Positions 5,765-35,043 of a stretch of 44,094 nt of DNA are shown piece after piece (position 1 is the stretch's first letter; the number at the start of each line of letters is the position of its first letter). The DNA comes from an uncultured Gammaproteobacteria bacterium (GTDB taxonomy: Bacteria > Pseudomonadota > Gammaproteobacteria > Arenicellales > JAANXG01), in the NCBI GenBank assembly GCA_947259955.1, contig CAMYOI010000006.1:1-44094 (forward strand), written 5' to 3'. The translations under genes and the position numbers were made by a program. The notes below the pieces were generated by a model. The model saw nothing but the letters and a program-made list of their open reading frames with translations, was not told the DNA's origin and ran no database searches.

Positions 5765-7003
5765 ATGAATCTTAGCGCTTCTCTTGCAGATAGTCTGGTC
5801 AGCGATGATGACTGGAGCGATCTCCACCGCTATCAGCGAATTCCGCAGATCGACTTCAGCAGGCTGTACGACTATCGACTGGGCCGCTTGAAGTCCGCGC
5901 TGCGGGACGCAGAGGCCTCCATGTGTGTTCTGGTCAATCCGATCAGCCTGCGCTACGCCGTCGACTACCGAAACTACGCGCTCTATCAGTCCCATATTCC
6001 CACCACGTATCTGTTTGTGCCGGTCGACGGGCCACTCGTCATCCACGGCGCATACGATCCGTCGCCCGCGGTGGAACATGTGCGTCGCGGTCGCCCGATC
6101 TCCTTTTTCGACGGCGGAACGGAACTCGGGGAATTCGCCGGTCTCCTGGCCGACGACGTTGTCGAGTATCTGCATGAGATCGGCACCGACAACAGGCGTG
6201 TGGCGGTCGAATACGTAAACCCGAGCCTCACGCAGGCCCTGATGCGGCGTGGCCTCGACGTGATCGACGGCGTCGCGATTTCCGAGTCGGCGCGTGTGAT
6301 CAAATCGGAAGAAGAGATCGCCTGCATGCGATGGGCCATTGCGGCCGCCGAACTGGGCATCGCCAAGGTGCGGGAGGTGTTGAAGCCCGGCGTCACCGAG
6401 CTACAGCTCTGGGCGTTGTTGAACTACACCAATATTGCCAATAATGGAGACTGGCATGACGGTCGTGTTCTGGTGTCCGGCCCAAGAACCAATCCCTGGT
6501 GCCAGGAAGCTTCCAGCCGCCGCATCGAATCCGGCGACCTCGTCGGACTGGATACCGACATGATTGGACCCTTCGGTTATTTTGCGGACATCTCGCGCAC
6601 GTTTCAGTGCGGCCCCGCCAAACCGACCAGGCGCCAGAAGCGGCTTTATCGCAATGCCGTCGAGGAGATCGAATCCAATCTAAAAATCGTCCGTGCGGGT
6701 ATCTCGCTTGTTGAATTCCAGGAGAAATCATTCACCGTTGCGGAAGCCTTTCATCAGAACGCTTATCCTTGCATCATCCATGGCGTTGGCATGTGCGATG
6801 AGTATCCGAGGGTCAACCCGGTCTTCCGCGGCCCCAACCCTTACGACGGTACGCTGGAGAGCGGCATGGTGATCTGCGTGGAGAGCTACATGGGCGAGGT
6901 CGGTGAGCGCGACGGCGTCAAACTCGAGCAGCAGGTCCTGGTTACCGAAGACGGCTACGAGATGCTTACCGCATTTCCGCTCGAAGCGGATCTTCTCGAC
7001 TGA
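5765..7003 (+). CDS. dddP-like: M24 peptidase-fold metalloprotein, DddP-like (putative DMSP lyase family)
   Basis: 412 aa; VSGPRTNPWCQEASSRR, LDTDMIGPFGYFADISRTF, IHGVGMCDEYP, MVICVESYMGEVGERDGVKLEQQVLVTEDGYEMLTAFP closely resemble DddP motifs as I recall them. Confidence 0.7.
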   Translation: MNLSASLADSLVSDDDWSDLHRYQRIPQIDFSRLYDYRLGRLKSALRDAEASMCVLVNPISLRYAVDYRNYALYQSHIPTTYLFVPVDGPLVIHGAYDPSPAVEHVRRGRPISFFDGGTELGEFAGLLADDVVEYLHEIGTDNRRVAVEYVNPSLTQALMRRGLDVIDGVAISESARVIKSEEEIACMRWAIAAAELGIAKVREVLKPGVTELQLWALLNYTNIANNGDWHDGRVLVSGPRTNPWCQEASSRRIESGDLVGLDTDMIGPFGYFADISRTFQCGPAKPTRRQKRLYRNAVEEIESNLKIVRAGISLVEFQEKSFTVAEAFHQNAYPCIIHGVGMCDEYPRVNPVFRGPNPYDGTLESGMVICVESYMGEVGERDGVKLEQQVLVTEDGYEMLTAFPLEADLLD

Positions 7004-33023: not shown

Positions 33024-34244
33024 CTAAGACGTGAACGCCTGAATTCCGGTCTGGGCGCGGCCCAGGATCAATGCGTGAATATCGTGGGTCCCTTCGTAAG
33101 TATTTACCGTTTCTAGATTCATTACGTGACGGATAACGTGGTACTCATCCGATATTCCATTCCCGCCGTGCATGTCCCGCGCCATTCTCGCAATATCCAG
33201 CGCTTTCCCGCAATTGTTGCGCTTCATGAGAGAAATCAGTTCCGGGGCCCCCTGACCGTTGTCGATCATGCGGCCCAGTCGCAGCACGCCCTGAAGGCCC
33301 AGCGAGATTTCCGTTTGCATGTCGGCCAGTTTTTTCTGAATCAGTTGATTGGCTGCCAGCGGGCGTCCAAACTGTTTCCTGTCCAGCGTATACTGGCGCG
33401 CGGCGTGCCAGCAGAATTCTGCGGCGCCCAGGGAGCCCCAGGCAATGCCGAAGCGGGCGCGGTTCAGACATCCAAACGGGCCTTTCAGTCCTTTCCCGCC
33501 GGGCAGGACGTTTTCATGCGGGACGAATACCTCATCCATGGAAATACTGCCGGTCACGGATGATCGTAACGAAAATTTGCCTTCGATAGTCGAGGTCGAC
33601 AGCCCCGTCATGTCTTTGTCCAGCAGAAAACCCCGGATAACGCCCTCCTCGTCTTTCGCCCACACTACCATGACAGCCGCAACGGGGGCGTTGGTAATCC
33701 ACATCTTGCTGCCTGACAGTGAATAACCACCGTCAACCGGCCGTGCCCTCGAAATCATGCCGCCCGGATCGGATCCATGGTCGGGTTCCGTCAATCCAAA
33801 GCACCCGATCTTTTCTCCACTGGCCAGCCCGGGCAGGTACTTGTTGCGCTGAGCATCGCTTCCGTAAGCATAAATGGGATACATCACCAGGCTGGACTGC
33901 ACGCTCATTGCCGACCGGTAGCCGGAATCCACACGCTCCACTTCCCGGGCAATCAGGCCATAGGAAACATAACTGGCGCCGCTGCCCCAGGGCTCGGGCA
34001 GACTGGCGCCCAGAAATCCCAACTGCCCCATTTCCGACATGATCTGGGTATCGAATCGCTCAAGCCTGTAAGCTTCCCTAACCCGGGGCAGAAGCTGCTC
34101 CTGGCTGTAGACGCGCGCGCTATCGACGACAAGCCGCTCCTCTTCACTGAGCTGCTGGTCGAGTAGAAAGGGATCGTCCCAGGGGATTGAACTTTCGGCG
34201 GACGGTGCGGGAATGGTTGTTTGATACTCTGCTTGCGATGTCAT
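33024..34244 (-). CDS. Acyl-CoA dehydrogenase, glutaryl-CoA dehydrogenase-like
   Basis: 406 aa; [83 protein letters not shown]. Confidence 0.94.
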
Positions 34245-34301: not shown

Positions 34302-34358
34302 CTATCCATTTCTTATCCACTTCTTATCCACACGGTCTGTGGATAACTCTGTTGATAA
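34302..34358. promoter_or_regulatory. Cluster of DnaA-box-like 9-mers (putative DnaA binding locus)
   Basis: CTATCCATT 34302-34310, TTATCCACT 34313-34321, TTATCCACA 34324-34332 (11-bp period); reverse-strand TGTGGATAA 34338-34346 and TGTTGATAA 34350-34358. Confidence 0.75.
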
Positions 34359-34410
34359 AACAAATGTACAGGTCCAATCCCTAAGCGATCATTGATGTTC
34401 CGCCGTTTGA

Positions 34411-34480
34411 TTAAAAAGTATACATTCTTTTAAATTGTTTATTTATCATAAACTTATGAACTTTACTTCACAATTATTTT
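34411..34480. promoter_or_regulatory. Highly AT-rich tract (candidate duplex-unwinding element) next to the DnaA-box cluster
   Basis: 59 of 70 bases are A/T by hand count; contains near-consensus IHF site TATCATAAACTTA (34444-34456). Confidence 0.5.
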
Positions 34481-34554
34481 AAGCGTTGCGTGTTAAACCC
34501 GCTTGTCTGTTACGATTTCATTAATAATGTGTACAACTCTCACGAGCCGGCCGG

Positions 34555-35043
34555 ATGTCAGTGCCCGCCGCTGCGCCACACTTGCCTTCTGATCCGGGCA
34601 TGAACGCTAGCCCGCATTTCTCACCAGGATCCCTGCCCCGGCGAATGGCCGCCATCGTTTACGACTGCCTCCTGTTATGGGGCATCCTGTTCCTTGCAGG
34701 CTTGCCCCTGCCGATTGTTTCGGAGCATGTGCGGGAGCACTGGGTCGTTCAGACGTTGATCCAGGTGTACCTGCTGTCGACATGCCTGGTTTTTTTCGGC
34801 TGGTTCTGGACTCACGGCGGCCAGACGCTCGGAATGCGTGCATGGCAACTTAGAGTCGTCGGCGCGGACGGCGCGTCTATTACCTGGCGCTCCGCCGTCA
34901 TCCGGTTTTTTGGTGCAATACTGTCCTGGGCTGCGCTGGGTCTGGGTTTTTGGTGGGTGCTGATCGACCGCCAAAAGCTCGCTTGGCATGACCATTTGTC
35001 CGGCACAAGACTGATACGTCTAACCAAATCCCCAAAAATTTAG
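34555..35043 (+). CDS. RDD family membrane protein
   Basis: 162 aa; LPRRMAAIVYDCLLLWGILF, GQTLGMRAWQLRVVGADGASITWRSAVIRF, RQKLAWHDHLSGTRLI. Confidence 0.9.
   Translation: MSVPAAAPHLPSDPGMNASPHFSPGSLPRRMAAIVYDCLLLWGILFLAGLPLPIVSEHVREHWVVQTLIQVYLLSTCLVFFGWFWTHGGQTLGMRAWQLRVVGADGASITWRSAVIRFFGAILSWAALGLGFWWVLIDRQKLAWHDHLSGTRLIRLTKSPKI
34606..34633. repeat. 28-nt exact direct repeat copy 1 (GCTAGCCCGCATTTCTCACCAGGATCCC), within the RDD coding region
   Basis: Identical to 37273-37300. Confidence 0.9.

Follow-up and report, generated by a model that had tools for sequence, protein, structure and literature searches.

In Escherichia coli, the DnaA-reactivating sequences DARS1 and DARS2 are defined by three DnaA boxes that are equally spaced in both loci, with box I oriented opposite to boxes II and III (PMC5742627). 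In the K-12 record (NC_000913), the DARS1 core, TTATCCACT-ATTCC-TGTGGATAA-CCA-TGTGTATTA, lies between bioD and uvrB at 813107-813141, and the DARS2 core, TTATTCACC-TTTTC-TGTGGATAG-AGT-TGTGAAGAA, is found in the rppH-ygdT-mutH region near 2969135-2969169. The IHF sites of DARS2 were published as lying 3 bp apart (PMC4245941). The minimal set of datA consists of boxes 2, 3 and 7 with one IHF site between boxes (PMC5742627). DARS sites have so far been dissected in E. coli and its close relatives, and conservation of their regulatory sites has been documented for E. coli-proximal species (PMC4245941; PMC8682772); DARS-like sequences are stated in a review to occur in many proteobacteria (PMC10380432).

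The DNA analyzed here, a stretch of 44,094 nucleotides (hereafter the window), corresponds to contig C6 of a 6.08-Mb metagenome-assembled genome (MAG) in 831 contigs, which is 91% complete and 7.5% contaminated. A first-pass annotation of the window had singled out a DnaA-box cluster beside an AT-rich tract as a candidate replication origin or DnaA-control locus. As described below, this locus is most probably (with a probability of about 0.83) a DARS-type DnaA-reactivating sequence of an Arenicellales gammaproteobacterium, reactivation being assigned by analogy with E. coli. This reading builds on the anatomy of the locus, on how it is conserved, and on the finding that the genome has genes for compatible DnaA, Fis and IHF proteins, from which we infer protein binding and nucleotide exchange.

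Three-Box Core of the Locus

The locus occupies a 310-bp divergent intergenic gap between an acyl-CoA dehydrogenase gene (33024-34244, minus strand, start codon at 34244) and an RDD-family membrane protein gene (34555-35043, plus strand), the latter being followed by lptF and lptG homologues; these are the neighbours that the first-pass annotation had named. All of the five 9-mers that it had listed, starting at 34302, 34313, 34324, 34338 and 34350, were likewise present, and the full reading of 34302-34358 is CTATCCATTTC TTATCCACTTC TTATCCACA CGGTC TGTGGATAA CTC TGTTGATAA. It had overlooked the defining feature, namely, an inverted pair of boxes with a 5-bp spacer and a third box 3 bp further on. 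Box I (TTATCCACA, 34324-34332, plus strand), which is invariant in four congeners, is directed opposite to boxes II and III. Box II is the same TTATCCACA on the minus strand (34338-34346, plus-strand reading TGTGGATAA), head to head with box I at a distance of 5 bp, and box III is TTATCAACA on the minus strand (34350-34358, plus-strand reading TGTTGATAA), 3 bp from box II. The resulting 35-bp core (34324-34358, plus strand), TTATCCACA-N5-TGTGGATAA-N3-TGTTGATAA, showed 0 mismatches to the complete DARS-type pattern TTATCCACA-N5-TGTGGATAA-N3-TGTKGATAA, and its spacing is that of both DARS1 and DARS2. On the evidence of this core, the locus can be assigned to the DARS class; orthology with E. coli DARS1 or DARS2 would be a separate claim, which we do not make.

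Allowing up to one mismatch, 13 DnaA boxes were found in the window against 5.7 expected, four of them inside 46 bp. Of 200 second-order Markov sequences having the length and trinucleotide statistics of the window, not one contained even three such boxes per 60 bp, and thus the cluster is far beyond chance. The cluster might also be taken for a hairpin or a terminator, as the 9-bp inverted repeat can fold into a stem of 9 pairs (z = -3.6). No T-tail was found, however, and other copies of the core break the pairing yet keep the DnaA-box letters, e.g., TTGTCCACA...TGTGGATAA. Because the core and its fixed distances to the Fis and IHF sites described below are conserved, the reading as a chance cluster or a hairpin was refuted, and its probability is negligible.

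Upstream Boxes

Two extra boxes, CTATCCATT and TTATCCACT (34302-34321, plus strand), precede the core, and together with box I they had been reported as three same-strand boxes at 11-bp spacing. The spacing is real, but it reflects a recent 11-bp tandem repeat, one unit of which is missing in the sister species G003. Conservation of this spacing had been suggested as a check, and an alignment of the four congeneric gaps showed that the boxes at 34302 and 34313 are not conserved, the two more distant congeners having no boxes there. A helically phased upstream array was thus ruled out as a functional unit. The DnaA-box-like 11-bp unit, which occurs three times at 34302-34334 and once fewer in G003, represents a recent box duplication adjoining the DARS core.

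Predicted Fis and IHF Sites in the AT-Rich Tract

The 70-nt tract at 34410-34479, which the first-pass annotation had described as a DUE-like element, is indeed 84% AT with 11 G/C; it is the lowest-GC 70-mer of the gap, and across the window this value was reached by just four 70-mers, all overlapping. The IHF-type site reported in it, TATCATAAACTTA, was confirmed at 34444-34456 (plus strand), with one mismatch to WATCAAnnnnTTR and at +85 from the core end. Also overlooked was a predicted Fis-binding site at the start of the tract, GATTAAAAAGTATAC (34409-34423, +50 from the core end), which perfectly matches the consensus GnnYAnnnnnTRnnC as quoted in PMC4245941.

Both motifs were counted at fixed offsets from the core in loci belonging to the order, to the class, or to other classes within the phylum. 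A perfect Fis consensus was present at +50 to +52 in 12/12 loci of the genus, 23/30 of the order, 32/87 of the class and 10/21 of other classes, and an IHF motif with up to one mismatch was present at +84 to +87 in 6/12, 12/30, 47/87 and 6/21 loci, respectively. The counts expected from upstream positions of the same loci were 0.05-0.28 for Fis and 0.01-0.29 for IHF across the groups; for the 87 class loci, they amounted to 0.28 against 32 observed and 0.29 against 47 observed. Neither site was seen at these offsets in 29 of the 87 class loci. A column profile computed without any motif from 86 class loci peaked at +51 (G), +55 (A), +61 (T), +65 (C) and +85/+86/+96, the same positions as those of the motifs. 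One family, f10 of the order, had Fis at +40 and IHF at +74-75, a joint shift by one helical turn with their mutual distance kept. Further peaks of the profile at +2, +3, +9 and +46 from the core end (class loci L040-L069 and L155-L214) fall outside the Fis and IHF sites and could represent a weak DnaA site or a spacing signal.

Since the conserved Fis and IHF sites coincide with the AT tract, it is better explained as a predicted Fis/IHF region than as an unwinding element. When the four congeneric gaps were aligned, the three boxes proved almost invariant, and conservation extended to TTNGATTAAA and to the right-hand part of the IHF site. All three core copies of the own genome carry a perfect Fis site; the IHF site has one mismatch on C6 and two on C70 and is absent on C75, which makes it doubtful that all copies depend on IHF.

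Comparison with DARS1, DARS2 and datA

The locus shares with DARS1 the I-N5-II-N3-III geometry, an identical box II, a box I differing by one mismatch, and an intergenic position away from oriC. In contrast, E. coli DARS1 has no Fis consensus at +51 and just a 2-mismatch IHF-like site at +86, and it lies in another gene neighbourhood. With DARS2, the locus has in common the same geometry and the presence of IHF and Fis sites on the regulatory side (PMC4245941). The order of these sites is different, however: E. coli DARS2 reads core, IHF (+58, +74), Fis (+110), whereas the window locus reads core, Fis (+50), IHF (+85). Its neighbours also differ, since it lies beside neither mutH/ygdT nor ptsP-rppH, and the extra boxes IV-VI of DARS2 were not seen. 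In short, the locus has the box geometry and spacing of a DARS, an intergenic location distinct from oriC, and a regulatory side with both Fis and IHF sites, as in DARS2; the E. coli order and spacing of the DARS2 sites and the E. coli neighbourhood were not found.

The E. coli layout (core, IBS1-2, then FBS2-3) occurred in 0/87 class loci, a figure to be read with the fact that E. coli DARS2 itself, with 6 mismatches, would not pass the filter of up to 3 mismatches, so that the class comparison is biased towards DARS1-like cores. The order of the helper sites at the window locus thus constitutes a variant layout, which from the sequences compared appears to be widespread. Because the Fis/IHF order is reversed here, the activation scheme of E. 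coli DARS2 may not transfer to this locus.

The first-pass annotation had also named datA, and a datA-like titration or ATP-hydrolysis site lowering free ATP-DnaA would likewise combine DnaA boxes with an IHF site (PMC5742627). The box geometry does not fit datA as described there: datA has another box set with IHF between the boxes, and its effect on DnaA is opposite, whereas the geometry of boxes I-II-III is that of a DARS with both Fis and IHF outside the core and IHF 85 bp away. No further DnaA box with up to one mismatch was found in the gap beyond the predicted IHF site, and on this geometry we consider a datA-like function improbable.

Copies in the Genome and Neighbouring Genes

The own genome contained three exact cores, namely, the one in the window (34324-34358), one on C70 (L012, 3128-3162) between an acetolactate-synthase-like gene and folA-thyA in convergent arrangement, and one on C75 (L013, 4621-4655) flanked by a membrane-protein gene and an RND efflux gene; in the latter two, the perfect Fis site is at +51. 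Three congeners each carried three cores as well. The three own-genome copies share only about 35-50 bp and have unrelated flanks, which ruled out a mobile or repeat element, and a plasmid origin was rejected as PLSDB gave no match.

The core adjoins the acyl-CoA dehydrogenase gene in 4/4 members of the genus and in 0/11 other genomes of the order, so this neighbour is kept within the genus only. Meanwhile, 18 genomes from five families of the order have a core that precedes rdd in the same orientation, mostly 140-226 bp from the start. Together with the divergent intergenic location, this arrangement would suit a promoter under DnaA control that serves rdd, the acyl-CoA dehydrogenase gene or both, Fis and IHF acting as transcription factors; matches to consensus promoters exist at a frequency near chance (2 versus 0.9). 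The core-Fis module, however, recurs at the two other loci of the own genome, where the adjoining genes are unrelated and in one case convergent, and class-wide the cores were not linked to rdd. A promoter reading is thus unlikely, and a dual role as reactivation site and promoter control is possible.

Position Relative to the Replication Origin

Under the origin reading, the locus would be a chromosomal oriC or a second origin, at which the boxes load DnaA and the AT tract serves as the unwinding element, and the box cluster does adjoin an AT-rich tract within an intergenic gap. The first-pass annotation had proposed that dnaA and any canonical oriC be located, and a canonical rpmH-dnaA-dnaN-gyrB locus was found on another contig, C230. 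Its DnaA is 84% identical to the DnaA of two congeners, and C230 therefore belongs to the genus of the window. The dnaA-dnaN gap of C230 (about 6730-6931) is about 70% AT and contains two perfect DnaA boxes and a perfect IHF site, features that make it an ordinary oriC candidate. Like the window locus, this gap combines DnaA boxes, an IHF site and AT-rich DNA; unlike it, it lies beside dnaA, and it contained no three-box DARS core within 6 mismatches. On the same contig (L014, 3202-5414), gyrB directly follows dnaN with no recF seen between them, and its reading frame is broken into two ORFs that overlap (120 and 655 aa), indicating a frameshift or an assembly error.

An oriC should lie beside dnaA/dnaN or mnmG and be unique in the genome; there were three cores per genome, and no homologues of DnaA, DnaN, GyrB or YidC, the four origin markers covered by the search, were detected in any collected core locus. 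Distances were taken from 16 genomes with a core and dnaA on one contig, 10 with exact lengths and 6 with a rounded genome size, the own 831-contig MAG lying outside this set. Their 26 cores were 83 kb to 1.66 Mb from dnaA, at 0.04 to 0.95 of the replichore and many of them mid-replichore; E. coli DARS2 and DARS1 lie at 0.41 and 0.66. Several genomes had one origin-proximal copy (0.07-0.17) and one mid-replichore copy (0.57-0.73). Given the multiple cores, the canonical dnaA locus elsewhere, the distance of at least 83 kb in single-contig genomes, and the coincidence of the AT tract with conserved Fis and IHF sites, the locus is very probably not a replication origin, and the origin reading is very improbable. 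Of the first-pass proposal, therefore, the origin half was abandoned, and the DnaA-control half stood as the DARS alternative, which agrees with the core geometry, the Fis/IHF spacings, the conservation and the position away from oriC. In the two-copy single-contig genomes G172, G361, G395, G059 and G074, one core was often near dnaA (0.07-0.17) and the other farther out (0.34-0.73).

DnaA, Fis and IHF Genes and Proposed Mechanism

The genome encodes a Fis with 50% identity to E. coli Fis over 80 residues and an HTH_8 domain, as well as an IHF-alpha scoring over the curated cut-off. Its DnaA keeps R227, L290 and R285 of E. coli DnaA and the box-reading residues checked; R227 and L290 are named for DARS2 function in PMC4245941. 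A partial DnaA on C274 (1-230) showed 45% identity to the main DnaA of the genome and is probably contamination. A 268-aa DnaA-like match on C419 was rejected as Hda, since from its sequence and neighbours it looks like an IstB-type transposon ATPase. C419 carries an IS21/IstB-type transposon with a ParB-like gene, which together with C274 is a sign of contamination or mobile DNA in the MAG.

In the proposed mechanism, ADP-DnaA would assemble on boxes I and II, which face each other head to head, and on box III next to them, and Fis bound about 50 bp and IHF bound about 85 bp downstream would fold the DNA so as to put strain on the DnaA complex. ADP would then be released, and the apo-DnaA would leave and rebind ATP. 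The pool of initiation-competent ATP-DnaA could in this way be raised ahead of the next initiation at the separate oriC.

Distribution of the Core-Fis-IHF Layout

At least one core with up to 3 mismatches was found in 263/369 genomes of the class, typically one to three per genome, and a reversed-pattern control gave 0 cores in every genome searched. Many of the complete genomes sampled from other classes of the phylum lacked a core; family f203 carried cores with the same Fis/IHF layout, and the matches in f207 and f211 were mostly without these sites. No homologues of MutH, PtsP, RppH or YgdQ were found in any collected core locus, nor was there linkage of these loci to uvrB, mutH or ptsP except for UvrB in L204. 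Among the open-access papers searched, supplementary files aside, none was found to describe core, Fis and IHF in this order.

We tentatively propose, at somewhat less than even odds, that the helically phased arrangement of core, Fis at +51 and IHF at +85 is a widespread, so far undescribed DARS layout, and that many non-enterobacterial Gammaproteobacteria, along with some neighbouring lineages, have it as their predominant DnaA-reactivation element, with one to three copies being usual. If so, the core-IHF-Fis DARS2 and the minimal DARS1 of E. coli would be derived rearrangements. With the 35-bp signature and its fixed Fis and IHF offsets, DARS loci can be found from sequence throughout a class, uncultured lineages included, and it becomes testable whether the Fis/IHF order matters and how the number of reactivation sites and their position relative to oriC have evolved. 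Paired cores in the same orientation, 1-2.3 kb apart and resembling tandem DARS, were observed in Janthinobacterium and two other genomes (L128, 735 and 1778; G106 C3, 19495 and 21746; G237 C15, 2749 and 4938).
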